Assembly: GCA_015832175.1 (NCBI GenBank)
Contig: WJXW01000018.1
Coordinates: forward strand, 310,001 to 374,000
DNA: 64,000 bases
DNA from: Paraphaeosphaeria minitans
Lineage: Eukaryota > Ascomycota > Dothideomycetes > Pleosporales > Didymosphaeriaceae
Direction: 5' to 3'
Of this stretch, positions 22,826-47,554 are shown piece after piece. Under the pieces are notes generated by a model. That model did no database searches. It saw only the letters and a list, made by a program, of their open reading frames with translations, and had not been told where the DNA came from. The position numbers were made by a program, and so were the translations under genes. Each line of letters starts with the position of its first letter. Position 1 is the first letter of the stretch.

Positions 22826-25800
22826 ATGGACATCATGGCTTCGGAAAACGCTCAAGTTCACTCTTGCCAATTCCCTTCCCTCGGTAGGGGTTCTGGCAGT
22901 GAAGAAAAACGGCCACTGTCGGTCAGGGTCGAGCTACAACATCCCGAGCGGCTTCAAAAGCTCTTCGCGGAAGAAGATGGCAAGGTTTCCTTCGTTGCTG
23001 CGGTCAGAACCGCCTGGGCACTGGTGTTGCGCACATACACTGGCTTGGACCAGGTCTGCTTCGGTCTCGGCGAGGTTAGAGGCGACGAGTCACCCGGCAA
23101 AGATGGACAACGAGACTCTGTTGTCGCGCATCTTGTCAGTGACGAGGTGTCGATTGCCGAACTCATCCAGTGCAAGAAGGACAAATGCTTCCCAATTGAT
23201 CAGCCCGAGCATGAGCGCTTACAATACAACACCTCAGTGCTGTTCCGATTTGCTGTGCAAGCTGGCACAGCATCGAGAGTGAACAACACGGCGTCAACGA
23301 CAATGGCCGCGTCGGTAGGCCATTCCTAATCCTCATGATTATACCCCTGCTGACGTCTTCCAAAACAGTGCCACCTCCGCCTGCTCATTAAGGTGCTGAA
23401 GACCGGTATCAGTCTTCTTCTTGAGTATCGCAACTCTTACATTCCGACCGAGTTCGCCAAAAGCATTGCGACTACGACCGACAAAGCGCTCGATCTTGCT
23501 ATTTCCATGCCACACTTGACCATTCGGGAAGCCGACCTGCTCAGCGAACGCAACCGAATTCAGCTCGAGAAGTGGAACTCGAAGCCGTTGGCCCACGTCG
23601 ACCGCACGATCCATGATACTGTCGCTGAAGTAACGAGGCAGAGTCCTCACGCTGAGGCAATCGCGTCATGGGATGGAAGCTTCACATATCGCGAGCTTGA
23701 CGAGTATGCTTGTAGGCTTGCAGGGAGCTTAATCGAGCTCGGCGTGGGCGCCGATGTGATTGTGCCCTTGTGCTTCCGAAAGTGAGTTCTTCGATGAGGT
23801 AGGGTTCGATATGCTGATGAATACTAGGACGCGATGGAACGTGGTTGCCGTCCTTGGCGTGTTGATTGCGGGAGGCGCATGTGAGTAGAGTAGTTGTTTT
23901 TCTTATCGCGCATAGATCCCGTGCCTTCCCCACGCCACTTCTCATCCGAGGACGTGGGGATAGGTAGAGAACCTGTCTCCGCTCCACCACGATTTGCACG
24001 TACTAACCTTCCGGAAGTTCTCCCACTCGACCCTGCGGCACCCCGGGAACGTCTTGAATACCTCGTCAGTGCTGTTGGCGCTAGTGTTGTCCTGTGTTCT
24101 CCTGCGGAAAGCCATCTCGTTGACAGCCTCGCGGAGAACATCTTTGCTGTCGACGACACCCTCTTCGAATCCCTACCGCCATTCGTAGAGCGGCCTCAAA
24201 GCCGTGTTGACAGTCATAATGCAGCTTACGTTATCCCCACTTCAGGCACTACAGGCCAGCCAAAACTGTCCTTGCTTGAGCATGGCAATTACTGCACGGG
24301 AGCAAGTGCGCATTATGTGGGACTTGGGATGGATACAAAGCCTCTGCGCGCGTTACAGTTTGCGGCCCACTCCTTCGATTCATCAGTGCTAGAGATCTTG
24401 TCCCCACTGATGTTCGGTGGCACCATCTGCATTCCAGACGAGAACGACAGACTGAATGACATCTCTAAAGTGATTAATGATATGCACATTACGTGGGCCA
24501 GTCTGACTCCGACTTTTGTTCGCTTTCTCCAACCTTCAATGGTACCCACTCTTTCTACCATCATCCTTATGGGTGAGGCCATGTCGCAAGCGAACCTCGA
24601 CACCTGGTCTAGGATCAACCTGATCAACGGGTGAGCACAACACCGGTGTATATGGCGACTTAGCTAACACACCTGGCAGTTACGGCCCCAGCGAATGCGC
24701 GGTCTGCTCCTCGTCTAGTCTGCACATGCAACCGACCTCGGACCCTAAGGATATCGGCTTTCCTGTCGGTTGTAACCTTTGGGTTGTTGCTCCGGAGAAT
24801 CGCCACCGCAGACTTCCTATCGGGTGCACGGGTGAGCTCTTGGTAGAAGGGCACATTGCCGCTCGAGGCTATCTCGGCGATGAAGAGAAGACAGCACAAG
24901 CCTTCGTCACAGACATCTCGTGGGCTCCTCGGCCTTTCCGAGGCTATCTGACCGGAGATCTGGTTGTCCAGCGACCTGATGGCGGCTTCACCATCGTTGG
25001 TCGAAAGGACAACCAAGTAGTATGTTCATAAGTCCTTCCTACGATGCCTACTGACCTGGTTTGCAGAAATACCATGGGCAGAGGATCGAGCTTCTGGAGA
25101 TTGAATATCACTTGAATCTTGATTCACTGGTCAAGCATAATCTTGTCTTTTTGCCTAAGAGCGGACCTTGCAAAGAACGATTGGTAGCTGTTGTGTCTCT
25201 CGCACAATACACATCAGAACAGCAGCCGCTCCATCTCTTCGAGGGACATGAAAAGACTGCCACCGATACTGATGTGGAAGCCATTCGCGCTCGATTATCT
25301 ACTCGGCTGCCTTTCTACATGGTACCTACCGTCTGGATTGCAGTCGTGTCTCTGCCTCTCCTCGCATCAGGAAAGCTGGATCGAAAGCGGACCTCGCAAT
25401 GGCTTGATACAATGTCTGACGAGACTTATCAAAGAGTCGTTCCAGCGAATGTGGAGTCTCAGTCTCAAAATGAATCTGCCTCCCTACATGAAGATATATT
25501 GAGGTCAGTATGGGCCCGTGTTTTGAACCTACCAGTCGAGCAGATTGGTTTGAACAAGGCATTCTTGTCACTTGGTGGCGATAGTATCAGCGCCATGCAA
25601 GTCATGGGATATTGCCGAAAACAAGGGATAAGCGTTGGTGTGCAGGAGATCCTGCGCTCACGCTCGATAGCCGAGTTGGCTACCATGGTGAAAGACGTTC
25701 AAGTGTCTGCGGATCGCGCAGCGGAAGAAATCGACGTTCCTTTCGACCTGACGCCAATCCAGTCACTTTGGTTTCAACTTCCTAACCAGGGACATGGCCA

Positions 25801-27115
25801 CTTCAATCAGTCGTTCTACCTCCAAGTGAAGCGCAAAGTCAATCCAGCAGATTTCCGCGCAGCTATAGATACGCTCGTGAGCCGACACTGTAAGTAAATA
25901 CCAAATCGTAGTTAACGGAATCCCACACTCACTATACACCATTAGCTATGCTCCGAGCTCGTTTCGCTTTGTCGGATGATCGATCCTGGCAACAGTGTGT
26001 GACGAATGATGTATCTGGGTCGTATCGGTTCCGACATGAGTCAGTGTCAACAAAGGAGCAGGTGGACCACATGATAGAGGATTCACAGAAGTGCCTCAAC
26101 CATGCCACAGGTCCCCTACTGGCCGCTGACCTGTTTGAAATTGGCAAAGAGCAGCACGCCTTTCTCGTAGCTCATCACCTTGTCATCGATCTGGTATCAT
26201 GGCGTCTAATTCTGGAAGAACTTGAGGAACTACTGACAAACGGATCGCTATTGCCGCCAGCTCTGCCTTTTCAGACATGGGCGCAGTTGCAACGTGAGCA
26301 CGCTCAGATGCAGCGAATCGATAAGGTTTTACCACCGGCTGAAATACCAGCGCTTGATTTCAACTACTGGGGCATTCAACACGCATCCAACACTTATGGC
26401 AATGCTGGTCATGCTAGCTTCGAGCTAGACCAGCATCTCACTTCCTTGTTCTTGGGTGAATGTCACGCGCCCCTCAAGACAGAGCCTGTCGAGGTTCTTC
26501 TGGCATCCCTCCTCCACTCGTGGGTCAAGGTCTTTGACGATAGGCCCATTCCAGCTATTTACAACGAAGGACATGGCCGGGAGCCCTGGGACTCGGATAT
26601 CGACATCACTCGGACAGTGGGCTGGTTTACGACGGTGTATCCCATATATGTCACACCATCTCACGATCCTCTCGAAACTATTCGGATGGTCAAGGACTTC
26701 AGACGCCAGATACCCTTCAATGGTAGACCGTACTTTGCCAAACGGGTCCTTACCAAAGATGGGAACGAACACTTCGATACTCACTGGCCAATGGAGATCA
26801 GCTTCAACTATCTTGGTCAATACCAGGTAAGCCAGACATCATTCACTACATTGCAGCCACATCGTGACTGACATCCGCTAGCAACTGGAACGTCAAGAAG
26901 CGTTACTACAGCCCCTCGAAAGTATGGCTGGCGAGACCCGCGAGGCAGGCGGAACGGCCGACGTGGGTCATGCATCTCCTCGGTTTGGTCTTTTCGAAAT
27001 ATCCGCCATCGTATTCAAAGGGCAGCTGAAGTTTGCATTCACGTTCAATCGTAACATGCAGCACCAGGAGCGTATCCGAGACTGGGTGTCGAATTGTGGT
27101 CAGGTACTCACGGAC
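22826..27115 (+). other. NRPS loading module: partial C, A1-T1-E1
   Basis: Residues 1 to about 1280. The first ~235 residues look like the C-terminal half of a condensation domain (AVRTAWALVLRTYTG, CFGLGE) without an HHxxxDG motif, as is common at fungal NRPS N-termini. A1 (about 243-740) has FDSSVLEI and YGPSECAV blocks and ends SGKLDRK. Its A3 core reads TSGTTGQPKL, where a Gly after the Lys is usual. T1 has LGGDSIS (Ser ~809). E1 has AHHLVIDLVSW (about 985), EGHGREPW and RTVGWFT. The first residue should be loaded as L and epimerised to D. Confidence 0.8.
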
Positions 27116-30100
27116 ATGATAGAAACATTGCCCTCGGTCGCCCCAAGGCCAACATTGAGCGACTTCCCTTTACTCACACTCAACGAAGACCGCTTCCAGG
27201 CTATGCTGCATCGTCTCTCTAGAATTTCAGTTTCAGCTAATGAGGTTGAGTCCGCATATCCCTGCTCTAGTATGCAAGAGGGACTTCTGCTTTCCCAGTC
27301 CAAAAACGCAGGCTTCTATGCAGCTGTGACTATCCACGAGCTAACCATACCGAATGGGCACCCGAAGTGGGAAGATATTGCCGACAGCTGGGCGAGAGTG
27401 GTTGCTCGACATCCCGCCCTTCGCACGATTTTCTTGGAGAACATTGGTGCTGAAGAAGGCCTGTATGATCAGGTCGTCTTGAAGAGCGTCGAACCCAACA
27501 TTGTTCATCTCCAGTGCGCAACTGAAGAAGAGGCACTTGAGCTCATCGAAAATCAACGCTCAGTTACGTATGAGGACAGTAGAAGCCCTCCCCACCGGTT
27601 CACCATCTGCAGTACGGCTGATGACAGGGTTTTCTGTTGCCTCGAGATCAGCCATGCCATCATGGACGGGCATTCCATGAGCCTACTGTTCCGGGACCTG
27701 CGAGATGCCTACGGAAAGTCACTTGCCGAAGACGGTCCTCCGTACGCCGACTATATTGCATACCTGATGAATCAGCCCCAAGAGGCTAGTCTCGACTTCT
27801 GGAAATCCTACCTTAAAGGAAGCGAAGTTTGCTCATTCCCAATGCTGAACGATGGCATTTCAGCTGAGAGGCAGCTTCAGAACATACGCGTAGACTGTGG
27901 CAGCATCAGCATCCTCGATCTGCACGCGTTCTGTAGTGCACACGGCATCACGTTGTCGAACATCTTCCACACAGCATGGGCAATTACTCTCAGCCTCTAT
28001 GTCGATAGTCCCGACGTCACGTTCGGTTACCTCACCTCAGCAAGAGACTCGGACGATATTCGACGTGTGCAGGATATGGTTGGACCTATCATCAACATGC
28101 TTGCCTGCCGCGTGCAATTGACTGACGGAGCGCGGTCTCTTCTGGATGTCATCCGAGATGTACAGCGCGACTATGTAGAGTCCATACCGCATCGACACAT
28201 TGCGCTCGCAGAGGTGCAGCACATGTTGAACCTAGGAGGCGCGAACCTATTCAATACTGCGCTATCTTACCGCCGATTGCCCCCGGATAGCACGTCCAGC
28301 AACGAAAAACTCCAATACATCGAGAAGGCGCCTATCTACGACCCGACCGAATACCCGGTTTCGATCAATATTGAAGTTTCGGATGAGGCCACTATGATCG
28401 ATCTCGATTTTTGGACTGATCACCTGTCCCCTAGACAAGCTGAAAACGTTGCCAGCACTTTTGTGCGTACTTTGGAGAATGTCCTCCACAACGCTGAGAA
28501 CAGCATCAACTCCCTCGATAATCTAAGCGGAAGGCACTGGCAGAGGATCCAAGATTGGAACGTCATACCTGAAACCATCCATGAATGTGTACACCACAGA
28601 TTCCAGGAGTGGGTAAAGATTCAGCCTGATGCTCCGGCTATTCGAGGACACGATGGTGATTACACTTACGCTGAACTTGACGCTGTCACTGAGCGCTTGG
28701 CCCATTACCTCGTCGATCTCGGGGTGGGCCCCGAGGTTTTCGTCCCCACATGCTTCGACAAGAGCTCATTTGCAGTTGTTGCCATGCTGGCTGTACTCAA
28801 AGCTGGCGGGGCAGCAGTTCCCCTGGATGCCAAGCATCCGAAACCAGCTCTCGAGTCGCGAGTTGAAGATACACAAGCGCAAGTAGTCTTAACTACAGCA
28901 GCCCGCTCAGAACAGTTCGAAGACATAGCACCAGATGTCATTGTTGTGGATTCGGTGCTACTTGAGGACCTCTCGGATGTGGAGCGCATTGCCTGCACCG
29001 ATGTTGAGCCCCACAATGCAGCATTCGTTATCTTCACAAGTGGAAGTACTGGACGACCAAAAGGCGTTGTACTGGAGCACGCGGCGTTCGTGACAAGTGC
29101 GTACGCCCATGGGAGTAGACTGGGCGTAGATCGTGACACCCGCTTCTTGCAATTCGCGTCCTACACATTCGACAACTCACTGGAAGAAATGTTCACAACA
29201 TTGCAAAGAGGGGGTTGCGTTTGCGTTCCGTCGGAAGAAGATCGTAAGCGTCTACCTACTTTGGTTCGCATTTTAAACGCTAACACATTGTCTCTCTTTA
29301 GGTATGAATGATCTTGCTTGTGCAATTGCCCGTTTGAATGCCAACTTTATGGACTTGACGCCCACAGTCGCATCACTTCTCAACCCCAAAGACGTGCCCA
29401 CGATCAAAAGCGTAGCCCTGGGTGGAGAAGCCTTGACTAAAGCGGTACTGGAGCAGTGGACTCCATATGTGCACGTCATGGGCCAGTATGGACCAAGCGA
29501 GGCATCTGTAAATTCGGCATTCAAGAGCTTCAGATCTTTCAAGCAGGGCGACGACCCTACCAACATTGGTAGAGCAGTCGGCAGCGTCTCGTGGATCGTG
29601 GATCCAAAGGATCGCAATCGCTTAGCACCGATCGGATGCAAAGGCGAGCTACTGATTGAAGGCCCTATCCTTGCCCGAGGCTATCTGCAGGACCCAGAAA
29701 AGACACTTTTGGCCTTCATACATGATCCTGCTTGGGCTCGTAGCAGCGATGGACATAGTCGCCGGTTCTATTGCACTGGTGATCTGGTCCATTATACTGG
29801 GGACGGAGAGTTGATGTATCTGGGAAGGAAGGACAGTCAAGTCAAGGTGAGCGGATACCTTTAGACGAAACAAAGCATTCACTGACCTGGAGTAGTTGAA
29901 CGGCCAACGCATCGAGCTAGGCGAGATCGAGTATCATCTCAATCTTGCTCTACCCTCAAATGCCCAGTCTGCAGTCGAGCTGGTCAAGTTCACCGACAGT
30001 AAAGGAACCAAGGCTCTTGTGGGCTTTGTTTGTCTTGCTGAGACATCGACTGAGGCCATCCCAGGAGTTGGGGAGATGACAGACGACGTGCGGGCGAAGG

Positions 30101-33100
30101 CAAAAGAGGCCGAAGTTGCTCTTGCGAACGTACTTCCAGCATATTATGTTCCTTCGATGTTCATGCCCTTGAATAGTATGCCAATGACAACATCTGGAAA
30201 GCTCGATCGAAAGGTATTGCGTCAACTGGCTCAAGCAGTCCCCGAGGATCAACTTGTTATCTTCCGACTTGCCGGTAAGAGTGGCCGAGCACCATCAGGT
30301 CCTGTAGAAACAACACTTGCCCGGCTTTGGTCGTCACTCTTAAATCTTCCCGCTGATTCCGTCGGCGCCAATGATTCCTTCTTTCGCCTCGGCGGTGATT
30401 CCATTGGCGCGATGCGGCTGGTCACCGCAAGTCGCAAAGAAGGCCTCGTGCTTGCTGTTTCCAATATTTTCTCACAGCCACAATTGGCGGAATTGGCGGC
30501 AACTGCTAGCATTCTCTCTTCGGATGAGCTCTCCGCCGCTCAAGAGCCGGAGGTGGCTCCTTTCGAGCTTATCTCCGAGCATAAGAAGCGCCAAGTAATC
30601 GAATTGGCTGCATCAGAGTGTGGAGTCTTTCCAGACTCTATCGAGGACATCTACCCATGTAGTCGTCTCCAAGAAGGTCTCATCGCACTCTCTGCGACGG
30701 AACCTGGATCGTACGTAGCTGAGACCATCTATCGACTGCCAGCTGATGTCGATGTACAACGTTTCCAGGATGCTTGGAACAGGGTCGTCGCAGAAGAGGC
30801 TATACTGCGCACGCGCATTATATACGTCCAGGACCAGGGTTTCATTCAGGTTGTCTTGCGTAACAGTGTGGACTGGTCTCAACTGGAGAGCTTGCAGGAT
30901 ATCAGCAACGTCCACCGTCACCTCCCAGTCAAGCCTGGAGCTCCATTGGCTTCGTATGCCATAATTGGGCAAGGTACATCATCTGTATTCTTTGTCTGGA
31001 CTGCACATCATGCGGTTTATGATGGTTGGAGCTTGACGAGCCTCCTCGGCAAAGTAGAAAGCTACTACCAGAACAGCACTCAAGCGTCGCACGCTACCGT
31101 TCCGTACTCGAGATTCATTAAATATGTTACTTCGCTGGATCCGAAGCAGGCAGACGACTTTTGGCGTTCCATGTTCGAAGACACCGCTGCCCCTCAGTTC
31201 CCTCAACTACCGAGCCCGGATCACAAAGTCGAAGCCTCTGGCCAACTCTGTCATCACATACCTGTGACCCGCCGAAGCGGAACAGATATCACAATGCCTT
31301 CTATGATACGAGCTGCCTGGGGCTTGGTACTGTCAGCTTACTCTGGTTCAGATGACATTCTATGGGGAGAGACGAACAGCGGACGTGAAGTCCCTGTCTC
31401 TGGCATTGAAGACATTATCGGTGCCACCATTACTACATCTCCTATGCGACTAAAGTTGGATCGTCAACTTACCGTTCAAGAATACCTCCAGGAGGTACAG
31501 CGCCAGACCTCGGCTGCAATTCCACACCAGTTTGCTGGGCTGCAGCACATTCGCAAACTTAATTCGGATACTGCTGCTGCATGTGACTTTCAGAGCTTGT
31601 TGGTCATCACAAGTGGAGACAGCATGAAGGACCCCGAAGGCGGATTGTGGAACCTCCAAAGCACGGGCGCCGTTGGTACCAACTTCTTCAACTATGGTCT
31701 CATCTTCAATTGCTTTGTCAACAAGAACGGCATCGAAGTTGAAGCACATTACGATGGCCAGGTGATACATTCATGGCTCGTTCAACGCCTACTTCAGCAA
31801 TTTGACTTCTTGATCAAGCTCCTAAATGGGGAAGATGCTCTCCAACACGTACTTGGCAACTTGAGCATGCTAAATCCTGCCGATGAAGCTGTGATTTCTT
31901 CCTGGAACAGTCGCCCAGTCAATGTTGCGGACATATGCATTCACGACAGCGTTTCCCAAAGCCAAGTCATCCTTCGCCCTACGTCAATTGCCATCGACTC
32001 GTGGGATACCGGTGAGATGTCTTACAGAGAGTTCGATGAGCGCACCACGCGGCTCGCCTCACGGCTCATTTATCTCGGTGTTAAGCCCCAGAGCTATGTA
32101 CCGATTTGCTTCGAAAAGTCCGGCTGGACTATTGTGGCTATGTTTGCCATCATGAAGTGTGGTGCAGCTTTTGTGCCACTTGACTTCGAAGCACCTCTTC
32201 TGCGACTCCGCGAGATCGTCGGGGATGTAAAGGCCGAACTCATCCTCTGTGATCCACAGCACGAAGAGTTGTGCAAGTCTATTTCTTGCAAGGTGCTCGT
32301 TGTCCATCGAGAGGCTACCGAACAACACACTGGCTACTCTCACAACCAAGTAACGGTTCATAGCGACACGACTGCCTACGTGATCTTCACTTCAGGCTCC
32401 ACCGGCAAGCCGAAAGGAGCGGTAATCAGTCACCGCGCGTTTTCGTCTGCGTCCGCGGCCTTTGCCCCCGCCTTTGGTATCTCTGAGAACTCTCGCGTCC
32501 TCCAATTCTCCTCTTACACATTCGATGCGTGTTTGATTGAAATATTCAGCACTTTTGTCATGGGTGGTACTGTCTGTGTTCCTGATCAGAGTTCGCGGAC
32601 GAATGATCTTGCTGGAGTCATCAACAAGTTCAGGGTCAACTTAGCCTGTCTGACTCCCTCCGTTGTCCGAATGATCCAGCCTTCTCAAGTGCCCAGCCTA
32701 AAGACGCTCCTTTTGGTCGGAGAGGCTATGTCTCAGCAAGATCTGCTCACTTGGGCTGACCGAGTGATCTTGTGCAATGGCTACGGCCCTACAGAGTGCA
32801 GCGCTATCGCCACTGTGAACGTCATGTCTGCCACCACGAAGCCAAACAATCTAGGCAAGGTGGTAACCGCCAGAGGATGGGTTGTGTCTCGAAATGACAT
32901 CAACCAACTAGTCCCTGTCGGAGCAGTGGGTGAACTGGTTCTAGAGGGGGGTGGTGTCGGCTCTGGTTACCTCAACAATCCCGCGAAGACCGCCGATGCT
33001 TATGTCGAAGAGGTCAACTGGACAATGGGAGAGGATCTGAATGTTGGCGCTTCGAGGAGATTCTACAAGACGGGTGATCTTGTAAAGTACAACGAGGATG

Positions 33101-36100
33101 GTACTCTGCTCTATCTTGGGCGTAAGGACAACCAGGTAAGCTTCATGTTGTTGTTCATACTAAGTCTAGTTAGCTAACCCGCCTTGCAGACAAAAGTGAG
33201 AGGCCAGAGGCTCGAGTTGAATGAAGTGGAACATCACCTCATCCAGGACTCTGTAGTGCAAAATGCTTTGGCATCAGTACCTAAAGCTGGACCATGCGCG
33301 AAGCGTCTTGTCGGTATCGTTTCGCTTCGAGGCGTGGCGCCATCCGGCACCTCCACGGCAGAATTGCAGCTTCTCCCTGAAGACACTGCTTCGTTCAATA
33401 TTGCGACGATCCGAGAACGTCTTGAAGCACGGCTTCCATCCTACATGATCCCATCGCTGTGGATTGCCATATCAAGATTTCCACTGATGCCATCTGGGAA
33501 GCTGGATCGCAAGAAAGTGGTACAGTGGCTCGAGAACATGGACAACGACACATATCGCACCATCTCCACTCTCGGAATGGAAGAAACCGTAGAAGATGCG
33601 GACTTAGTCGACCGAAAGCTGCAGACGATCTTCGCAAAGGTTCTTAACCTGGGAACAGAAGATATTCGTATGGGCTCATCTTTCCTGCGGCTTGGAGGGG
33701 ACTCGATCGCAGCCATGCAGGTATGTTCGATGTGTCGTGCTCAAGGCTTGGCTGTCTCCGTTCAGGACATAGTCAAGTCTAAGTCAATTGCTGCTCTCGC
33801 GGCAGGAGTCTCTATCTCTAGAACCTCTGCAACTACGAAGTCGCAGCCTCAAGATTATAGTCTGCCCTTCGACCTCAGTCCTATACAAAAGCTCTTCTTC
33901 GCAACAGTTGGCGATAACTATGGCCACTTCAACCAGAGTACAATATTTAAGTTCGCCCGGTCGTTCGAGCCCAAGGAGATCGAAGAAGCGCTCAACGCTC
34001 TGGTGGAGACGCACCCCATGCTACGAGCGCGGTATTTCCAAGATGAATCAATGCTTTGGAAGCAAAGCATTGCAAAGATTGCCAACCCGTTCAGGCTACG
34101 ACACCACCAAGTCAAGTCAGCCAAAGAGGAGTTCATGCGCCCAGTCATCGACGAAAGCCAGGCTACACTGGACATCGTGAAAGGTCCAGCTTTCTCTGCT
34201 GACCTCTTCGACATTGATGACAATTTTTCCCAGGTCATTGCGCTGGTCGTGCATCATCTGGTCATTGATATCGTTTCATGGGGCGTTATTATTGAGGATT
34301 TCGAGAGCTTGCTCAATGGCACAGCACCCCCGCCTCAGAGCCTTCCCTTCCACGCTTGGACACAACAGCAAGCTGCACAAGCTCTTCGGGAATGTGCTGA
34401 AAAAGTCATGCCATTAGCTAATATCCCACCGGCAGACTTTGACTACTGGGGTCTTGATGCATCTGATAATCTGAACGGCGATGTCATTAGCGAGGACATC
34501 GAGCTCAGCCCCAAAGACTCGATGTTGATCCTCGGGGCACATGACGCATTGGCTACTGAGCCTGTGGACGTATTCATTGCAGCACTACTGGAGTCATTCC
34601 GCAAGGTTTTTCCTGATCGACACGCTGCGACAATTCATAACGAAGGGCACGGCCGTGAGCCTTTCGACTCCCAAGATCTGAGTAGGACAGTGGGATGGTG
34701 TACGACTATGGTACCCATCCACCTACCAGTAGCCCCTGAAGATCCTACGGACATCGTAAGCACGATTCGTTGGGTATCCAGCCTCCGAGAGAAGACTCCA
34801 GGGAAGGGCAGACCCTACTTTGCGTATCGACTCCTCATTGGTGAGGGTCAGGATCGCTTTGCATCCCACTGGCCTGCAGAGGTAACCTTTAATTACCTAG
34901 GAAGGATGCAGAACATGGAGCGTAAGGATGCCTTGCTACAGAGAATGACTAGCATCTCGACTACAGACATTAGCGCAGCCACTCCACGACTTGCACTTTT
35001 TGAAGTCACTGCACTCGTCGCTCAGGGAACCATCAAACTCTCTTTTGACTTTAACCGTCGGATGAGCAGGCAATCGCAGATCAAGAGCTGGATGGCTGCA
35101 TGCAAAGACACGCTGGTTGACGCTGTTGATCAGCTTCTCCAGCTGCGATCTGAACACAGCCTTGACAACTTCAAGCTACTGCCTCTAACCTACAATGGCA
35201 CGTCGAAGCTTTCTGCGTTGTTACCTACAGGCACCACTATTGACGAAATCGAGGATGTGTATCCCGCTTCCCCAATGCAGCAAGGCATGCTCTTGTCTCA
35301 GCTCAAAAACCCTGAGCTGTACTCATATCATTGCATTCTCGAGATCAAGTCGACGGCCGCCACGCAGCAGGTCAATCCACGTAAGATCGCCGAGGCATGG
35401 CAGGTTGTGGTGCAGCGCCATCCGATCCTGCGTACCGTGTTCGTTGATAGCATTTCTAAGACCGGCTTGATGGATCAAGTCGTATTCAAAGAGAGACCTG
35501 GCAGTATCACGTGGATCGCTGACTGCGATACTGAAGATGTGGCTCGGTTCTTAAGGAATCAACCTCTGATTGACTTCCGCGAGTTCAATTGCCCTCATCG
35601 CTTGACGATCTTCACAACAAAGGCGAACAGCATTTGGGCCAAATTGGAGATGAGCCACGCCATTTGCGATGGCACTTCGATTCCTATTATCCTGAACGAC
35701 CTCGCGAGGGCATATGGGAACAAGTTAACGAGAGCGGATGCTGGGCCTCTCTACAGCAACTTCATTGCTCACACTCTCACCAACAATCGCGATGCCGATG
35801 TGAACTTTTGGAAAGCTTATCTGACTGGGGTGGAGCCATGCTTCTTCCCAGTCCTTCACGATGGCGTACCCGGACCACACGAAATGGGATCGTATGAGCT
35901 TCATCTGCAGGATATTGCCCCCATGACGACTTTCTGCAGGAAGTTCGGTGTGACTCTTTCTAACGTACTGCAGCTTGCATGGGCTCTACTTCTGCACGCC
36001 TACGTCGGTGCACCAGATGTGTCATTTGGCGTTGTAGCATCTGGTCGCGACGTTCCAGTGAAAGGCATCGACGAAGCAGTTGGCTGCTTCGTCAACATGC

Positions 36101-39100
36101 TCATTTGTCGACTGGAGCTATCAGATGATTCCACCGTCCATCAGCTATTGGAAAAGATACAAACCCATTCAGTCGATGCAATGGCTCACCAGGGATGCTC
36201 ACTCGCTGATCTTCAGCATGAGCTTCAGTTGCCGTCGCTTTTCAATACAGTCTTCACGTATCAACGTCGCCAACTCTCACGCGACCCCACCAAGACGGCA
36301 TTAACGTTTAAAAATATAGAGGCGGCCGATCCAGGCGAGTTCTTGATGACACTGAACGTGGAGGTATCAGATGAAGGAGCCTCGATCGATTTTGGCTTCT
36401 GGAAGGACAGATTACACCCTTCGCAAGCGCGCAATATCGTAGATGCATTCGAAAAGATACTGTCAAGCATCATCTCAAGCAGCGACAAAGATGTCACCGT
36501 AACCGAACTCGACATGTTGACGACGAGCAGTGTGCAGCAGATCATGGAATGGAACGCCGACCTACCTCCGCCTGTACGACGATGCGTACACGATGTCGTC
36601 CAGGAGCAAGTCCTGCTTCGGCCACGCTCGACGAAGGCCATCGAGAGCGCAGAGCTGACGGTTACGTACCAAGAATTCGATGAGATTACCACGCGTCTGG
36701 CACTGCACTTGCAGGGTCATGGAGTTGGCCCTGAAACCTTCGTGCCAATTCTGTTCGAGAAGAGCCCTTGGGCGCCAATTGCGATGATCGCAATCATGAA
36801 AGCAGGAGGTGCATACGTAAGTGGAAACGACCATTAAAATGGACCATGCAGTTACTGACACACTTCCTAGGTTCCTTTGGATCCAAAGCATCCGCCAGCT
36901 CGCCTTCGCGAACTGATCGGCGATGTGAGCGCTAAGATCGCTTTATGCTCAAGAATGTACCATTCTCGGGCAAGCGAGGTCATCAGATCCGCAATCATCG
37001 TCGACCGACTATCCATCAACAAGCTTCCTCTGCCCAAGGGAGTGAAGTTGAAGTCAAATGCAACCCCAGAGAACCCGGCGTACTGCTTATTTACGTCTGG
37101 CACAACAGGTAAACCAAAAGGAACCATAATTCCACACGAAGCCTATTGCACGAATTCAGCAGCGTTCGCTCCAGCGATAGGCATTCACAGCAACTCTAGA
37201 ACCTTCCAATTTGCGAGTTATACGTTCGACGCCAGCTGTTTAGAGATTCTCTCAGCCCTCATGGTAGGAGCAACTATCTGCGTGCCGACCGAGGACGAGC
37301 GAATGTCAGACCCAGCAGGAGCCATCCGTCGGATGGGGGCTACCTGGTCTCTCTTGACTCCATCGGTCCTGAGCACCCTCAAGCCAACACAGTTGCCGAC
37401 TCTGAAGAATCTCTGTGCAGGAGGCGAGGCAGTGCCTGCGGCTGAGGCCGAAAAGTGGCAGAACAGGCTACACTTTGTCATCGGTAAGCAACACCCACAC
37501 CCACTGCGCACCGCGAGCTAGGAGCCAGACTAATTCACGCACAGCCTATGGTCCGACTGAAACCGCTGTCATTGCCAGTACCATTCATAAGACGACCGAT
37601 GTTGATGGAAGGAACATTGGGCTTGCCTCTGCATGCCGTTTATGGGTTGTTCACCCCAGCAATCATGACAAGCTCATGCCTATCGGCGCAGTTGGCGAAC
37701 TTGTTATCGAAGGATACACTGTTGCTCGAGGCTACCTTGGTGATGAAGCCAAGACGGCGAAGGCCTTCATCACCAATCCAGCTTGGGCATCGTCGCTGCC
37801 AGCAGAGAACGGATCATTCGAAACCGCACGGATGTACAAGTCTGGAGATCTCGTACGCTATAACCCAGACGGTACCTTCGGATACATAGGTCGGAAGGAC
37901 ACACAGATCAAGCTCAACGGCCGAAGAATCGAATTAGCCGAGATCGAGTTCCACGTCAACGACAAATTCGCGGACAACATCCAATCCGCCGTGGAGCTTG
38001 TTGCACCTGCAAGTCGTACCTCTGCTAAGGCTTTGGCTGTCTTCTTCGCTGTCAACGACGACCCGCGAGCGTCCTCTACCGACGTCGTCCAACCTGCATC
38101 ATCCGACCTTCCGCAATCCGATGAACTCCTCCTCCCGATGGATGATGGTGTGCGAGAGGTCTGCAAGTCCCTTGAGAATGCCCTGGTCGGTTTCCTACCT
38201 GCGTACATGATTCCCTCCATCTTCTTCCCGATGAAGAAACTGCCTTGGACGCCGGCCGGGAAGTTGGACCGTAATCGACTGCGCGTGTTGGTGCAAAACC
38301 TAAGCAAAGAGACATTGTCGCCATATCGCCTGGCGAACTCCATGCACAAGAAGAAGCCGACGACTGAGGCCGAAAGAAGGCTCCAGAAACTGGTCTCATC
38401 GGTGCTAAATTTGCCGCTGTCATCGGTAGGTGCGGACGATAGCTTCATCCGACTTGGAGGGGACTCCATAGCGGCCATGAGGCTTGTAGCCGCTGCGCAA
38501 GCAGAACATTTAGATCTCTCGGTTATAGACATTTTCAAGCGTCCTAAGATCTCTGACCTGGCTGCCAAATGCAAGATCTCTGCTTCAGAACCCAAGAACG
38601 AGCGTAGCATCGAGACATTTGAGTTGTTGCCTCGAGAGCTACCGAGGAATCAGGTGATCCAAGAGCTTTCCGACATCTGCCGCATACCCAAGAACAAAAT
38701 TCAAGATGCATATCCACCAAGCCCGCTACAGGAAGCATTCATTGCTCTCTCGATAAAGCAACCTGGTGCTTACGTTGCTCAACACATTTTGGTCCTCGCA
38801 GAATCTGTCGACGTCAAGAAGTTCAAGGCCGCGTGGGAGAAGGTAGTTCAAGAGATCGACCTCTTGCGCACGCGTATTGTCCAAATCCAGACAGGCGCAT
38901 TCATACAGGCTGTTCTTGTTGAAGATCCAATTTTCTGGCGCGAGGTCAGCACTCTTGAAGAGACCGAAGGAGACGCTGCTAATCTACCGACCTACCTTGG
39001 AGGGAAGCTTGCGACATATGCGATTGTCCGCACAGCCTCCGCTGCTAGATACTTTGTATGGACTATCCACCATGCTCTTTATGATGGCTGGAGCATTGCT

Positions 39101-42100
39101 TTCATGCTCCAACGTGTACAGCAAATCTACCAATCTGGATCGTCCAAGGTTCCCAAGGTGCCGTACACCAAGTTCATTCAGTACCTTCAGAAAACGAGCC
39201 GAGACGCCTCCGCCGCATTCTGGAAGCATCATCTCGCTGGTGCCGCACCTTATCAGTTCCCACAACAACACAGCAACATCAGTGAAACTCCCGACGGACA
39301 AACATTGCAACACACTGCCAAGCTCATTCCCCAGCGACATACAGACATGACGCCACCAACTTTCATTAGAGCTGCCTGGGCTCTCTTACTTTCGGCATAT
39401 ACTGGTAGCAATGATGTCATCTTTGGTGAGACGCTCACTGGTCGTGATATCGCTGTTCAAGGCGTTACCGACATCTGTGGCCCTACTCTCACAACTGTGC
39501 CAACAAGGGTACAAGTCAATCGCGATGGAAACGTTCTGGACCTTTTAAGGAGTATCGCCCACGACTCTACAGATCGCATACCGCACCAGCATTTTGGTCT
39601 CTCCGAGCTGAAGCGTATGGACGAAAACACATCTGCCGCGTGCGACTTCCAGAATCTGCTCATTATTCAAACGGATAGTGAACAGCCAGCTGAATCCATG
39701 TGGTCTCATCATAATAATGGCGTTCAAGGACAGTACTTCACGTATCCTCTGGTCGTCGAATGTCAGACTAGTCAGACGAGCATCTCCTTCACGGCATATT
39801 ACGACGCGAACGTCATTTCTACGTGGGAGGTTCAGCGTATCCTCTACCAATTTGATGCTGTTCTATCACAGCTGAACTCGGTGGGCAACATCCGCGATGT
39901 CCACGTTTTTAGTGTGCAGGATGCTCAGTTTGTAAGCAGACTAAACGCTGCGGAACCTTTGGTTGTCAACGAAACGATGCCCTCGTTATTTTTCCAACAA
40001 GTATCGGCCCACCCACATGCCACAGCCGTGTCGGCATTTGATGGCGACTTCACTTACGGCGAGCTTCGGGACTTGGCATCGCAGCTCGCGCAAATGCTCA
40101 TAAGATTGGGAGCTGGCCCTGAAAAGCTCGTGCCTATATGCATGGACAAATCATGTTGGGCGATAGTAGCGATTATGGGCGTTCTGATATCTGGTGCGGG
40201 ATATGTTCCACTGTCTCCGGATCACCCAGCTTCACGCCACCGACAGATCATTCAGGACTGCAATGCTTCAATCGCTCTATGCTCGCCACAGTATGAATCA
40301 CGCATGACAGACATCGTCGAAAAAGTCATTACGACAAGTAAGACTACCATTCATCAGCTCTCGACGCATCAGTCTCCATTGACACTGCGCGCGGCACCCG
40401 AAAACATATGTTACGTTCTCTACACCTCTGGTAGTACCGGAGTTCCTAAGGGAGTTGCTATCGAACATCGAGCCATCGCGACCAGCTCTGCGGCTATGTG
40501 CAAGTCGCTTAACATCAAGCCCACTTCCCGGGTGTTCCAATTCGCCTCGTTCGTCTTCGACGTCTCGGTCATGGTAAGTCGGCCACCAGCCTGACTATAG
40601 CTCTACTGACCCATCTAGGAAATCCTCACTGCTCTCAGCTGCGGTGCGGTCGTGTGTGTTCCCTCGGAAGAGATTCGCACCACGGACATCGCTTTGGCTA
40701 TCAACAGCTTGAAAGCTACTTGGACGTGCCTGACACCTTCTGTTGCAAATGTCATTGAGTCACCGGAGAGTGTGCCGACTCTCCAGACATTTGCATCTGC
40801 TGCTGACCCATTGACGCCGGAGACAATCAAGAAGTGGGGCTCAGGGCTCCAGCTTCTGAACGCATACGGGCCTACAGAAGCCTCTGTCATTGCCCTTTCG
40901 AACAAGGTTGCCTCGATTCTTGGCGAGTCTACAATAATCGGTCGCGCTCTGGACAGTGGGCGAGCTTGGCTCACCAACTCAGAGAACCCACATCAGCTTG
41001 CTCCCGTTGGCGCGGTCGCAGAACTCTGTCTCGAGGGGCCTTTCCTTGCCAGAGGCTACTGGAACAATCATGCAAAGACTGCTGAAGTATTCGTCGAAAA
41101 CCCGAAGTTCATGAAGAAATTTTCGAAAGATCTCTTTACGCGGATCTATCGTACTGGTGATCTGGTAAGGTACGCATCAGATGGTCGTGTTCACTACCTA
41201 GGACGCAAAGACAACCAGATCAAGTTGGCAGGTCAGCGTATGGAGCTTGGGGAGATCGAACATCACCTACAAGCCGACGAAACCGTTAAAAACGCTGTTG
41301 TCATTTTGCCTAAATCAGGCGCTGCAAAGAGAAAGCTTACAGCGGTTGTGTCGTTACATCGGATACCGGCTAAAGCCGATGCGCACGATCAGCATTGGGA
41401 CACGCCAATAAACCATCCAGACGTGCTCCAACAGATCAAGGTTGCAAAGGATCGGCTGTCCGATCTTGTTCCCCCGTACATGGTGCCGACACTGTGGATT
41501 GCGGTCCCTCGCATCCCTGCTTTGGCTTCGGCAAAGCTTGACAGGAAGCAGGTCGGGGCTTGGCTCGCAGACATGAACGACGAAACCTATCGCATGATTC
41601 TAGACATTGAGCGCAGCATGGAACCAGTGATTCCTTCCTCTAAAGTAGTGATGAAGATGCAGGGTATTTGGGCAAAGGTGCTCAACATGCCAGTCGAAAA
41701 TGTGAAGAGCAACAAAACATGGTTGTCACTTGGAGGGGACAGTATCACAGCCATGCAACTACTGGCTAGATGTAGGAAAGAGGGCATCAACATCACGCTG
41801 AACCAGATTCTAAGAAGTAAATCGCTTGCTCATCTTGCAGAAAGCGTCAGAGCTTCTGTTATCGTCGACTTTGAGAGTGACAAAACGGACACGCCTTTTG
41901 CACTGTCCCCAATCCAGCGCTTCTACTTCCGAAGCTTGGACGATGACAAAAACTCTCACTTCAACCAGTCTTTCACGCTCAAGTTGTCTCGCAAGATGGA
42001 TTCCTCCAGCCTGAAGGCCGCCCTTGATGCGATAGTCCATTGTCATTCGATGCTACGTGCCCGATTCACCAAAGACACCGGCGGCATATGGAACCAGATA

Positions 42101-45100
42101 ATTCCGGGCGATCTCTCCAACGCATACGCATTCAATTTTCACAATGGCATCCCACTTTCCGACATCCCGGAACTCATCTCGAAAACCCAGAAGAGTCTTA
42201 ATATCGTCAGTGGACCCGTCTTTGCAACAATGCTGCTCAACACGGAGACCGGGGAGCAAATATTATTCCTCACAGCGCACCATCTTGTCATTGATGTTGT
42301 GAGCTGGCGGATAATCTTGGGAGACTTGGAAGAGATCCTCATTTCGTCATCTTCGGTCGCACTACAGAAAGGTCTTTCCTTTGCCACATGGAACGAGAAG
42401 CAGATCTTGCACACAACTAATGCAGCTCAAACTTCTGCCATCCAGAAGCAATTTCTACATGTCGAACCTGCTGACCTAGCGTTCTGGGGCCTCGACAAGC
42501 GTCCCAACGTCTATGGCGATGTGGAACGTGAGATGTTCTCGTTGGACGAGAAGATCTCGGCATCGGCTTTGAGCCATCACTCGGCATTACGCACCGATAT
42601 CGTCGATCTTTTCCTGGCAGCAATTGTGCACTCGTTCTCACGGGTCTTCGTTACGCGAAAGACGCCGACCATCTTCAACGAAACACACGGTCGTGAGCCA
42701 TGGGAATTCAGTAACCTGGATTTGTCAAGGACCGTCGGCTGGTTCACCACATTGTACCCTGTACATGTAGCCATAGCTGAAGACGAAGACGATGTGATAC
42801 AGACAGTACGCCGAGTGAAGGATCTTCGCCGAAAGGTCACGGACAACGGACGCCCCTACTTTGCTCATCGCTTCCTCACTAAGGATGGACAGGCCGGTTT
42901 CGCCGAGCATGAGCCAATGGAGATCTTGTTTAACTACCTTGGAAAGATGCAACAGCTCGAGGCTGAAAATGCACTTTTCCAGCCGATGCACTTCAGCGAG
43001 GATGACGAGGCACGGATGACCGATACCGGGGCTGATCTCCGGAGACTTGCTCTCTTTGAGGTCTCCGCGTCGGTCGATAACGGGAAGATCCAACTCACCT
43101 TCATGTACAACCAGATGATGAAGAACCGAAAAGGCATTCGCAGGTGGATAGCGGAGTGTCAACGAACGCTTGAGGAGATTGTCTCGGCACTTTCAGAGAT
43201 AGACACCCCTCAACCAACTCTCTCCGACTTCCCTCTACTACCGTTAGACTCGTACGACCGCCTTAACCGCGTAATCAAGTCGCTTGCATCCGTAGGCGTT
43301 TCTTACCCTCAAGTTGAGGACATCTATCCTTGCGCTGCTGTTCAAGAAGGTATGATCCTAAGCCAGATCAAGGATCCCAGCGCGTACTGGTCTTTCACAA
43401 CCTTCGAGCTGAAAGCCAAACGAGGCCGAGTGGATGTGCAGCGCGTGCTACAAGCTTGGAAGCATGTTGTCGATCGGCACCAGGCTTTGCGTACTCTGTT
43501 TGTTGATAGCGTCAGCAAAGGGGGTGTATTCGACCAGGTCGTTGTGAGAGTCCCTGAAACCGGCGCCCTCGCAGTGACTTGCACCGACGACGAACTCAAC
43601 ACTAAGCTCGACTCCATTCAATACCGCGATCTAAATGGGAAAAAGAAGCCTCACCTCCCTCATCAACTTGCTGTTGTGCAGACTACATCAGGTAGAGTTG
43701 TTGTAAAGATGGAGATCAATCATGTTGTCATTGACGGTGGATCGCTCGCTGTTATCCGGAATGACCTAGAAGAGGCGTACGAGGGCCGCTTGCGCCAAGA
43801 AGATGGCCCGTTGTACAGTGACTATATCAAGTACTTACGTGCGCTTCCCATGAAAGATTCTCTCGACTTCTGGAAGGGAAAATTACGCGGTGTCCGGCCA
43901 TGCCACTTCCCGATTGTGCCGCAACACTCGAGCAAACAACGACAGCTCCATTCGCTCTACGTAAAATTCGACCGATTCTCTGACATACAGGTACTTGCCG
44001 AGAGGAACAACATTACCTTCGCCAACATCTTGCTTGCCGCATGGTCACTGGTACTCCACACCTATACAAGCTCATCAGAAGTATGCTATGGCTACTTAAC
44101 ATCAGGCCGCAATGTCCCGATCAATGGCATCGAGAACGCAGTAGGAGCTTTCATCAACATGCTGGTGTCTCGCGTCGAAGTGTCTAGCTCGCGTTCGCTC
44201 CTTGCCATGAGTGAGAGCGTCCAAAATGACTTTATCGAGAGCGTTCCGTACCAGCATTGCTCTCTTGCCCAATTCCAGCACGACCTTGGTCTCTCTGGCC
44301 AAGCTCTCTTCAATACGGCTGTTTCCGTCCAAAATCAAGGCGCTACGGAAGGTGAACGAGCTTCTCAAGCAAATGTGGAGTTCTTACATCTTGATGGCGG
44401 TGACCCAAGTGAGTTTGCATTGACAGTCAACATCGATACAACCAGGAACGACGAAGGTGTGCGGTTAGCGTACTGGACAGATTCCGTGTCTGATGAGGAA
44501 GCGAAGAACGTTTCTTCTCTGCTAGTCGAGATCCTCACACAGGTTCTTGCTGACCCAGGTCAAACGGTAGCGGAGCTTGATGCCGTCATCACAAACAAGC
44601 CAAAGTCGATGCGGAAGCCCAGAGTCTACACACCTTCGGTCCGATCGCCCATATCAAGCCCTTACCTCGACATTCCGGATCCCATGGCTTCCGCCCGGAT
44701 CATACCCAAAGTCGAAGTACTCCAAGCCCCAACACCTACCACGATGGATGCTCCCGACTGGAGCAACTTAATTCGGTCCATTGTCAGCGAGATGGTACCT
44801 CAGATTGTGAACCAGGTCATGGAGAAGAACAAGCTTGCCCCAATCGCCACCCAGTCGACGGTCAGTGAGATGACCAATCAGATGGCAGGTATGCTTGCGA
44901 GGCGAGCATCGACAAGCAAGAGAGGAAGAAACTTGGAGAGCGCTTCTATACGCTCGCGACGGCTTAGCACGGCTAGTGATACCGGGAGCAGGATTCAGAC
45001 TGCGGCCGACATGGTGGCAGCAGCTGGCGTTATGGCAACTGAAGCCTTGAAGTCAGTGCCGCCGGATTTTGTGGAGAAGAAACTTCTAGGATTGTGGAGC

Positions 45101-47554
45101 GACCTACTTGACATGGTGGAGGATTCGATTGATAAGGACGATTCGTTCTTTGTATGTATTTTCTCTACGGACTCTCGTGCGTTGCTTACCATCTGCAGCA
45201 ACTGGGAGGCGACTCAATTATCGCAATGAGACTTGTCGGAGCTGCAAGAGAGGAAGGTCTGTCGATGACTGTCGCAGATGTCTTTAAAAATCCGACTTTT
45301 GCCGACATGGCCAGAGTAAGTTTATTCTGCCGGGAGATACATCGACTAACTGCTCTAGGTCGTTCGTGTTGCTGGCGAAGTCATTGACGAAGTCATGTCT
45401 CGAGCTGGAGGAGAGAGCCTCAAAGAAGCACGTGCGAGCTCTTCTAAGCCAAAGATACAGATTCCAGAGCGCACTGTGTCAGCCTGGCGCGACTTCCAAT
45501 CCATGGTATCTGAGCAAGCTATCGATGATAAGACGACCGAGGGCGGAAACACCCCACCGGCTCAACAAGAGCGGCAACTGCAGGAAAAGACTGACCAGAT
45601 GTTCAAGAAGTGGACAGGATTCGCGAACGGACAGAATAGCAGGCCTCAACTACAGCGCACAGTCAGCCAGAAGCCCATTATGCCCCAAACGATACAGGAG
45701 GACTCCGCACCCAAGTCGATATCCCTGCTGGGCGATCCCAATGTTGACAGTGTTATCTCGAAAGTTCAGGTTTTCAAGGGCGGTATCACCGATGTTCTTC
45801 CTGTGACCGACTTCCAGGCGCTCGCCATCACAGGAACGTTGCTCGAATCGAAGTGGATGCTGAACTATTTCTATCTGGACGGAGAAGGGCCGCTCGACCT
45901 TCGAAAACTGAAGCAGGCGTGCTTCCGTATTGTACAGGCATTCGATATATTGCGTACAGTCTTCGTGCCGTACGGTGATCGCTTCCTACAAGTCGTATTG
46001 AGGAAGCTTCAACCTGACTTCCACCACCAGGAGACTGACGAAAGCCTGGACGATTTCACAACAGAACTCCGCCACAAGGACCAAGAACATGGGCCTCGAC
46101 TTGGTGAAGCATTTGTCAAATTCGTTGTGGCCAAGCAGAAGGCCAGCGGCCGCTACCGTATCTTCATGCGACTATCCCACGCACAGTACGATGGCTTCTG
46201 TTTCTCGAAAATGCTCACCTCGCTCCAGGCGGGCTACAATGGCTTGCCTGTGTCAACTACTCCAAGCTTCGGCAACTTTGTCCGGGAATCGGCGAAAGCA
46301 GTCGCAGGAGCCCACGATCACTGGCGCGAGGTACTGAGAGGATCCAAGATGACCGAGATCGTGCATCGCTACGGGCCCAACTATCAACGATCAGCCGGGC
46401 GCACCGTCACACTCAAGCAAACACTGAAAGTTCCATCGCTGTCTCAAATCAACATCACGACAGCCACTGTGATGAAGGCAGCATGGGCAGCAACTCTTTC
46501 TCGTGTCGCGGGCAAGTCAGACATCGTGTTTGGTCACGTTGTATCTGGCCGCAGCGGCGGCGTGCCAAATGTCGAAAACATTATCGGACCATGTCTCAAC
46601 ATGGTTCCTGTGCGCGTGGTGTACCGCCCCGAGTGGACCGTCTTTGATCTCCTTGGCTACATCCAGGAGCAGCAGATCAACAACATGGCGTATGAGTCTC
46701 TGGGATTCCGAGAGATTACACGCAATTGCACGGACTGGCCCGACTGGACGAATTTCTCCAGCGTGCTACAGCATAACCAAAACATCCAGTCAGAGGATGC
46801 GACCCTCCAGCTCGGCGGTATTGAATTCAAGATTGGAGCTGCAGGCAATCAAGAAGATTTCGCTGACATATCAATTCTCTCGGCTTCAAAAGCAAGAAAC
46901 GAGGTCGAGGTGACCCTCACTTATGCACCCAACAGTACATTGACGGCTGAATTCACACAAGATGTCTTCGACATGCTTTGCGCAAATGTCATCACGTTCT
47001 CAGAAGACCCTTACACGCTACTGCCAGCTCAGTCAGAGATTGGGTCTCAGAGCTCCACGACTATCACATCGGAAACTGCCCGCAAGAAGTCTTCGGAGAA
47101 AAAACCTCTCACACTTCCCACTGACACCGGGCTTTCCAAGCACGAGCTTGCGACGCTCTCAACGAAGTTGCGTAGCGCATGGGAGCAAAATCTTAGGGAC
47201 GAGAACAACGCGCCTCCTGCTATAGACTTAGCATCCGACTTCTTCCAGTTGGGCGGCGACATTCAGGGGATCGCTCAGATTGCCTCGATATTCAATCATG
47301 AAGACGGGTGGAAGGTGCGAGTCGAAGACCTGCTCGACAAGCCGGTCTTTGTCGACCAAGTGGGATTGCTGGCTGCAGAGCGGAAGAAGCAAATTGAGAA
47401 AGAGGAGATGAACCCATGGGGAGAGAAGAGAAAGATTGCTCCCAAGGGATCGCTTAGCGACAAGGAAAAGCTCGAGCGGAGGCAGAGTGGACTGGGGGCT
47501 TTGGCAAGGAAGATTGGACTGAAGCGGAAAGATACACACAAGGAAGCAAAGTGA
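22826..47554 (+). CDS. giant nonribosomal peptide synthetase, five A domains, ending C-T-C-T
   Basis: Sixteen exons: 22826-23314, 23369-23781, 23828-23880, 24018-24630, 24680-25019, 25067-25889, 25946-26826, 26882-29243, 29302-29846, 29896-33135, 33190-36816, 36871-37483, 37545-40573, 40619-45151, 45199-45315, 45359-47554. The sum is 23,874 nt, 7,957 aa, without a frame break. Order: partial C (1-235), A1-T1-E1, C2-A2-T2, C3-A3-T3-E2, C4-A4-T4, C5-A5-T5-E3, C6-T6, C7-T7. A domains activate amino acids, T domains carry them on phosphopantetheine, C domains form peptide bonds, E domains convert L to D. T1-T6 all keep LGGDSI; T7 reads LGGDIQ and lacks the Ser. E domains keep HHLVID.VSW. There is no thioesterase, so release probably uses a terminal C domain, as in many fungal cyclic peptides. 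The product is predicted as a pentapeptide with D residues at 1, 3 and 5. A Cochliobolus NPS4-like relationship is only a guess. Confidence 0.92.
27240..30540 (+). other. NRPS module 2: C2-A2-T2
   Basis: Residues ~1325-2390. C2 starts VESAYPCSSMQEGLLLSQ and carries SHAIMDG (~1460). The first His of HHxxxDG is Ser, while the catalytic second His and the Asp are kept; it follows an E domain, so it should accept a D donor. A2 has TSGSTGRPKG, FDNSLEEM and YGPSEASV and ends SGKLDRK (~2272). T2 has LGGDSIG (~2341). No E domain, so the residue stays L. Confidence 0.8.
30620..35110 (+). other. NRPS module 3: C3-A3-T3-E2
   Basis: Residues ~2415-3890. C3 has AHHAVYDGWS (~2543), the full HHxxxDG motif. 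A3 has TSGSTGKPKG, FDACLIEI, YGPTECSA and SGKLDRK (~3354). T3 has LGGDSIA (~3424). E2 has VHHLVIDIVSW (~3607), EGHGREPF and RTVGWCT. Predicted to add a D residue. Confidence 0.8.
35240..38620 (+). other. NRPS module 4: C4-A4-T4
   Basis: Residues ~3935-5020. C4 has MSHAICDGTS (~4073), again with Ser in place of the first His after an E domain. A4 has TSGTTGKPKG, FDASCLEI, YGPTETAV and AGKLDRN (~4902). T4 has LGGDSIA (~4972). No E domain, so L is kept. Two introns of this A domain sit at the same places as introns in A1. Confidence 0.8.
38695..43150 (+). other. NRPS module 5: C5-A5-T5-E3
   Basis: Residues ~5050-6520. C5 has IHHALYDGWS (~5173). A5 has TSGSTGVPKG, FDVSVMEI and YGPTEASV. Its A10 motif reads ASAKLDRK (~5978), with Ala for the usual Gly before the catalytic Lys. 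T5 has LGGDSIT (~6050). E3 has AHHLVIDVVSW (~6230) and RTVGWFT. Predicted to add a D residue as the last activated amino acid. Confidence 0.78.
43300..47554 (+). other. NRPS terminal region: C6-T6-C7-T7 without A domains
   Basis: Residues ~6570-7957. C6 has INHVVIDGGS (~6709). Where an A domain would stand there is only a ~150-residue linker (about 7000-7150) rich in Ser, Pro, Arg and Lys with a predicted amphipathic stretch (SNLIRSIVSEMVPQIVNQVM). T6 has an intact LGGDSII (~7192), split from its upstream FF by an intron. C7 has LSHAQYDGFC (~7498). T7 reads FFQLGGDIQGI (~7855) and lacks the attachment Ser. The protein ends in a Lys/Arg-rich tail. One of these C domains should release or cyclise the chain. 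Confidence 0.75.

Follow-up and report, generated by a model that had tools for sequence, protein, structure and literature searches.

The nonribosomal peptide synthetase (NRPS) gene in the window analyzed here, a 64,000-nt stretch of Paraphaeosphaeria minitans DNA, is probably orthologous to the NPS4/NRPS4 (fusahexin-type) synthetases and would make a cyclic hexapeptide with D-L-D-L-D-L chirality; the probability of this assignment was estimated at roughly 0.78. P. minitans is placed in the Didymosphaeriaceae (Pleosporales), and the source assembly of the window comprises 47.45 Mb in 30 contigs.

Gene model and genomic context

The NPS4/NRPS4-type gene occupies positions 22826..47554 of the + strand and was confirmed to be real and intact, with 16 exons, 15 GT-AG introns and a predicted product of 7,957 aa. 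The public P. minitans protein PMIN07_006815 (P0121, 7,957 aa), matched against the reading frames of the window, maps to 22826-47554 (+). Exons 1-6 are located at 22826-23314, 23369-23781, 23828-23880, 24018-24630, 24680-25019 and 25067-25889, exons 7-11 at 25946-26826, 26882-29243, 29302-29846, 29896-33135 and 33190-36816, and exons 12-16 at 36871-37483, 37545-40573, 40619-45151, 45199-45315 and 45359-47554 (all +); their lengths total 23,874 nt, i.e., 7,957 codons and a TGA stop codon. As about 15 single residues differ between P0121 and the window (residues 319 and 911, which are split by introns, fall outside the exact matching), the window and the PMIN07_006815 record probably represent two strains of one species. 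The presence of two or more genes at this locus is unlikely, given that a single public 7,957-aa model spans it, and an in-frame stop at 33175-33177 was rejected as a break in the gene since it falls within the intron at 33136-33189.

Pieces of an ABC-C (MRP-type) transporter, divergent from the NRPS gene, were identified with Pfam on open pieces at 14131..17086 (-), possibly extending to 18409; the best solved matches of the piece at 14134-15246 were MRP1, ABCC2 and YCF1. This adjoining transporter would probably export the peptide. An ABC transporter gene is common to this locus and the F. graminearum NRPS4 cluster, which is described in the available part of PMC10967133 as consisting of four genes, including MFS and glycoside hydrolase genes; in contrast, neither an MFS nor a glycoside hydrolase gene was found in the flanking ORF pieces of the window tested with Pfam. 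For F. avenaceum, excerpts of PMC11677700 describe a two-gene NRPS4 cluster. Tailoring enzymes were likewise not found in the flanking ORF pieces tested with Pfam, a search that short exons could escape. The other genes detected (pseudouridine synthase, Prp3 C-terminal, acyltransferase, DUF1168 and histidine phosphatase) are apparently unrelated, and a 194-aa open frame between the transporter and the NRPS gene (21051-21635, +) is without a Pfam match.

Domain organization

Domains were called with Pfam on the open exon pieces and with local HMMs built from P0121, which gave the order A1-T1-E1-C2-A2-T2-C3-A3-T3-E3-C4-A4-T4-C5-A5-T5-E5-C6-T6-C7, all on the + strand. A weak N-terminal C-domain remnant (22841..23083; local HMM, 21 bits) is followed by A1 (23615..24998; Pfam and local HMM; pocket code DSLSIMGVC), T1 (25481..25672; Pfam and the motif LGGDS) and E1 (25757..27148; local E model; HHLVIDL). 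Module 2 comprises C2 (27260..28549), A2 (28592..29822; local HMM; DNEDAGQVN) and T2 (30298..30489), module 3 C3 (30655..31896), A3 (31951..33117; DAICLVGAI), T3 (33601..33792) and E3 (33883..35154), module 4 C4 (35263..36543), A4 (36589..37888; DALLCGAVI) and T4 (38363..38554), and module 5 C5 (38714..39934), A5 (39992..41200; DVMCAAAVI), T5 (41639..41830) and E5 (41912..43210); T2 to T5, E3 and E5 were called with local HMMs, pocket codes were read for A2 to A5, and C2 to C6 are supported by motif and by placement in the C/E tree. After C6 (43328..44608) come T6 (45065..45303; motif, HMM and carrier comparison), an intact L-type carrier (LGGDS) without an A domain of its own, C7 (45800..47065; TqaA match and C/E tree), a terminal C domain of the cyclizing type (SHAQYDG), and a degenerate carrier (47129..47326; 17.4 bits, below the Pfam cut-off) in which LGGDI is without the serine.

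E domains are confined to modules 1, 3 and 5, and all three contain HHLVID. The C domains that follow them read SHAIMDG (C2), SHAICDG (C4) and NHVVIDG (C6), and C3 and C5 read HHAVYDG and HHALYDG, respectively; variants of the HHxxxDG motif were interpreted in the sense generally given to them in condensation domains. The active-site serine is kept in carriers T1 to T6. The preliminary description of one intact 7,957-aa, 16-exon gene with five A-T pairs and E domains after modules 1, 3 and 5 only was thus borne out by the P0121 mapping, the GT-AG introns, the exon sum and the Pfam and HMM calls, and its SH/NH and HHxxxDG readings for C2, C4 and C6 and for C3 and C5 were exact; T6, C7 and the LGGDI carrier were absent from it. 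One further observation concerns A5, where SAADP is found in place of the GGEA, VGEA or MGEA of the other four A domains; A5 retains the core lysine region (KLDRK).

Conservation and orthology

The homologue set comprised 307 proteins among the matches listed, 187 of them with at least 6,200 aa; as these homologues are the best-scoring part of longer lists, the conservation counts apply to close relatives only. The core order T-E-C-A-T-C-A-T-E-C-A-T-C-A-T-E-C was found in 184/187 long homologues among the matches listed, the others being P0302, in which one C-A-T is missing, and two proteins that begin only at E1 (P0159 and P0182). Among the 184 core homologues listed, A1 is present in 139 and T6 plus C7 in 179, including F. 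graminearum P0260 and F. poae FpNRPS4 (P0289), which have the order A-T-E-C-A-T-C-A-T-E-C-A-T-C-A-T-E-C-T-C in common with the window NRPS. Judging by the species and length of P0260, by its architecture and by how closely it resembles FpNRPS4, we infer that this protein is F. graminearum NRPS4 (FGSG_02315). Stemphylium and Curvularia proteins named nonribosomal peptide synthetase 4 also fall within the core set; the name NPS4 alone proves nothing, however, because Clonostachys rosea nps4 is described, in the part of the source available, as being of an 11-module peptaibol type. The motif pattern is shared as well, with SH at C2 and C4 (180/184 and 177/184), NH at C6 (181/184) and HH at C3 and C5 (183/184 and 184/184) in the homologues among the matches listed.

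Among the matches listed, 45/184 homologues, from Alternaria, Bipolaris, Curvularia, Stemphylium and Bimuria among others, are annotated from T1 and have no A1, which is present in the P. minitans, Kalmusia and Lojkania proteins. T1 starts within the first 50 residues in 43/45 of these A1-less proteins, and some of the 15 starts inspected (P0139, P0127 and P0131) keep linker or A10-like residues; because of these remnants, the absence of A1 may in part represent truncated annotation, possibly mixed with true loss. Glonium stellatum (P0157/P0165) and Zopfia rhizophila (P0131/P0169) have two members each, one with and one without A1.

Two quick trees placed the window domains within this family. 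The C/E tree contained 218 domains, from 23 hand-picked proteins of the 184 and 11 paralogue domains of the P. minitans genome itself, the paralogues having been flagged by the program for their long branches; E1, C2, C3, E3, C4, C6 and C7 each formed one clade (7/9 positions), while C5 and E5 were not single clades, two changes being needed, and may nevertheless each have one origin. In the A tree (110 domains from 22 proteins chosen from the 184), A2, A3, A4 and A5 each formed a single clade, and 15/16 A1 domains, including that of the window, fell into one starred clade, although A1 was not one clade overall. By these trees, the A and C/E domains of the window are orthologous, position by position, to those of the family proteins including the F. 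graminearum protein. In the C/E tree, C2, C4 and C6 group together with a value of 99, and C3 groups with C5 with a value of 98, a split that indicates two condensation types according to whether an E domain precedes; a C2/C4/C6 clade is what would be expected if these domains take D-donors, and the alternating D/L programme proposed previously is supported. P0135, which is labelled Anthostomella pinea, was placed with proteins of Pleosporales by each of the two trees; this may reflect a mislabelled source or a transfer.

Proposed assembly of the peptide

In the assembly proposed here, A1-T1-E1 would set the first D residue and C2-A2-T2 would add an L residue, C3-A3-T3-E3 and C4-A4-T4 would form a second D-L unit, and C5-A5-T5-E5 with C6-T6 a third, the last module having no A domain. 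T6 would be charged by the A domain of another module, with A4 (n+2) as the preferred candidate, and C7 would release the finished chain as a six-residue ring in which D and L residues strictly alternate. The closest solved structure to C7 is TqaA (5dlk, 125.7 bits), the best non-TqaA chain scoring 67.6. Precedent is provided by F. graminearum NRPS4, which is reported to have five modules and to make the cyclic hexapeptide fusahexin (PMC10967133), with alternating D and L residues (PMC12340964) and the structure cyclo(D-Ala-L-Leu-D-allo-Thr-L-Pro-D-Leu-L-Leu), according to the portions of these sources available. Taking into consideration that C6 needs an acceptor and T6 is available, that T6 is intact and L-type, that C7 is of the cyclizing type and that the F. 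graminearum precedent exists, cyclo(D-L-D-L-D-L) is the most likely product. Loading of T6 by another module's A domain, which we infer, is known in kind from SidC, where A3 is described as loading T4 and T5 of later modules, one or two modules downstream (PMC10192304, available in part).

Since A1, A3 and A5 differ in pocket code between the window NRPS and the Fusarium protein, the product appears to be a relative of fusahexin and probably not fusahexin itself.

Pocket codes and residue order

Nine-letter pocket codes were read at the positions known from GrsA. The codes of P0260 for A1 to A5 are DVTLVGCVV, DNADAGCVN, DAMLVGAVV, DAMLVGAVI and DIGFVGGVF, which share 2, 7, 2, 7 and 2 of 9 letters with those of the window NRPS, so that the two proteins are alike at positions 2 and 4 and differ at positions 1, 3 and 5. 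In the 76 proteins with a P0260-type A1 code among the matches listed, the A3 and A4 codes share a mean of 7.95/9 letters, and the next best pair of A codes a mean of 5.79/9. As fusahexin contains a single D-Leu-L-Leu neighbour pair, the likeness of A3 and A4 points to modules 3 and 4 as those for D-Leu and L-Leu, and the sole rotation that has D residues at positions 1, 3 and 5 and gives modules 3 and 4 an identical amino acid starts with D-allo-Thr. From the codes, the preferred register of fusahexin would therefore be D-allo-Thr, L-Pro, D-Leu, L-Leu, D-Ala and L-Leu (on T6), by which T6 would bear the residue of A3/A4.

The codes thus suggest a register other than that given in a review (PMC10967133, citing Westphal 2021; available in part), namely D-Ala, L-Leu, D-allo-Thr, L-Pro and module 5 used twice, where A5 would charge both T5 and T6. 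A hexapeptide made in this way is possible if doubtful; A5 is the closest upstream A domain to T6, but the published register demands near-identical pockets for allo-Thr and Pro, the residues that it assigns to the two most similar codes.

In a set of 40/184 proteins with less than 70% identity over A2-A5, pocket identity at the L positions was 0.75 for A2 and 0.86 for A4 (n=40 each), and at the D positions 0.52 for A1 (n=36, four proteins without A1 being left out), 0.61 for A3 (n=40) and 0.62 for A5 (n=37, three with a gapped code being left out), with a whole-domain identity of 0.51-0.58 at all five A positions. L-position pockets are held and D-position pockets vary. A wider reading, in which the family is a frozen (D-L)3 machine of three D-L bimodule copies that lost its last A domain, A4 loads T6 with L-Leu in the revised register, and the alternation of the ring and its L residues are maintained by selection, as the held L pockets and variable D pockets would imply, is offered tentatively and is itself rather unlikely to hold in every part.

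The code of A2, in which position 278 is Asp, looks nearer to codes for basic residues such as ornithine and arginine than to those of proline, which is treated as a lead only. At the four positions at which the Fusarium A2 code reads AGCV, the siderophore-like A domain L012 of the P. minitans genome reads AGCV as well, unlike the other A domains of that genome. The available part of PMC12340964 mentions, besides the oxidation of proline, an alternative route via glutamate semialdehyde. As a further lead, A2 may use an ornithine- or semialdehyde-type substrate as the source of the presumed oxidised proline, an origin that would be consistent with the lack of an oxidase gene in the tested flanks. 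A search of full-text literature with six partial pocket codes gave no match.

Number of residues in the product

The preliminary description had proposed a D-L-D-L-D pentapeptide without an assignable product; the latter statement no longer holds now that the enzyme can be assigned to the NPS4/NRPS4 (fusahexin) family, and the former is probably wrong, given the intact L-type T6 and the cyclizing-type C7 after C6. For a pentapeptide, C6-T6-C7 would have to be vestigial or merely chain-releasing, an improbable arrangement that would agree with the presence of only five A domains, a last module without one and a carrier after C7 without serine. In the homologues among the matches listed, the first GG[DNHE]x motif after C7 is GGDS in 0/179, and 74/179 have no such motif there. 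T6, on the other hand, is a sixth intact carrier, contrary to what would be expected of a pentapeptide synthetase; it reads GGDS, with the serine, in 177/179 homologues among the matches listed, and the NH motif of C6 is conserved as given above. In all 178 proteins measured among the matches listed, T6 is nearest to T2 (98) or T4 (80) and never to the carriers that precede E domains, so that its sequence is that of an L-type elongation carrier, and the matching F. graminearum architecture reportedly yields a hexapeptide. On the basis of T6 and C7, the pentapeptide was rejected as the product.

An NRPS confined to this lineage and unrelated in role, e.g., a toxin or siderophore synthetase, is a very improbable alternative; homologues bear the public names HC-toxin synthetase (P0223 and P0302), dtxS1 (P0164) and atnA (P0208), and SidC likewise has A-less modules (PMC10192304, in the part available), but these names look like automatic misnomers, since P0223, P0164 and P0208 hold the core order and P0302 all but one C-A-T unit, and the C and A domains of the SidC-like locus of the same genome (L009 and L010, assigned by architecture only) fall outside the window clades in both trees. 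No E domain was seen in these SidC-like pieces (L009 and L010). By architecture, the P. minitans genome contains, among L009, L010 and L012, a SidC-like NRPS (L009 and L010) and an A-T-C-T-T-C NRPS that resembles an extracellular siderophore enzyme.

Possible biological role and significance

Cochliobolus heterostrophus NPS4 (ChNPS4) is reported to affect conidial surface hydrophobicity, and an Alternaria NPS4 homologue conidial wall integrity (PMC2823734; PMC12675215; both in part). The reference list of PMC10967133 includes, in the portion available, a paper title on NRPS4 overexpression raising surface hydrophobicity, and fusahexin is described as practically insoluble in water (excerpts of PMC12340964). 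The abstract of PMC11677700 ranks fusahexin among virulence factors, whereas its text deems an involvement unclear; the available part adds that overexpression limited disease spread and that a hydrated analogue was more abundant than fusahexin. To judge from ChNPS4, from F. graminearum NRPS4 and from the insolubility of fusahexin, the product of the window NRPS is likely to affect cell-surface hydrophobicity.

Cyclic D,L-peptides can stack, and it might be speculated that insoluble rings assemble into a water-repellent surface coat. Simple stacking of flat rings is disfavoured because turns are described in fusahexin (PMC12340964), and the words nanotube, stack and aggregat are absent from the available portion of that source; fusahexin is unmentioned in the ring-assembly literature among the matches listed.

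In the literature searched, parts of which were available as excerpts, no product other than fusahexin is named for the NPS4/NRPS4 family. A literature search for Paraphaeosphaeria minitans together with nonribosomal peptide gave no match, and a looser search for Coniothyrium minitans gave no title on the window NRPS gene among the matches listed. The kind of system is already known, and what is new here are the variant residues and the family-level reading. With the fixed D-L-D-L-D-L hexapeptide reading, many NRPSs currently recorded as hypothetical gain a product that can be tested, and both the fusahexin register and the way in which the A-less module is loaded are cast in a form open to in vitro assay. 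Since P. minitans is a mycoparasite with applications in biocontrol, its peptide variant could be of practical interest.

Comparison with known systems

The terminal C domain of TqaA resembles C7 as its top solved-structure match; the two systems differ in enzyme and in product, that of TqaA being fumiquinazoline. The ferrichrome synthetase SidC/NPS2 has A-less modules charged from elsewhere and yields a cyclic hexapeptide (PMC10192304, in part), as proposed for the window NRPS, but its product is a siderophore and its A and C domains belong to other clades. The C. heterostrophus NPS4/Alternaria AbNPS2 type (about 7,200 aa) has the same T1-to-C7 order, which was seen in Stemphylium, Curvularia, Bipolaris and Alternaria proteins, and the C domains of three sampled members share clades with those of the window; unlike the window NRPS, the annotated proteins of this type open at T1, without A1, and ChNPS4 is described as tetramodular in the available part of PMC2823734. 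F. graminearum NRPS4 (P0260) has the same order as the window NRPS, including the A-less C6-T6 and the terminal C7, after which 3 aa follow in P0260 and 162 aa in the window NRPS.
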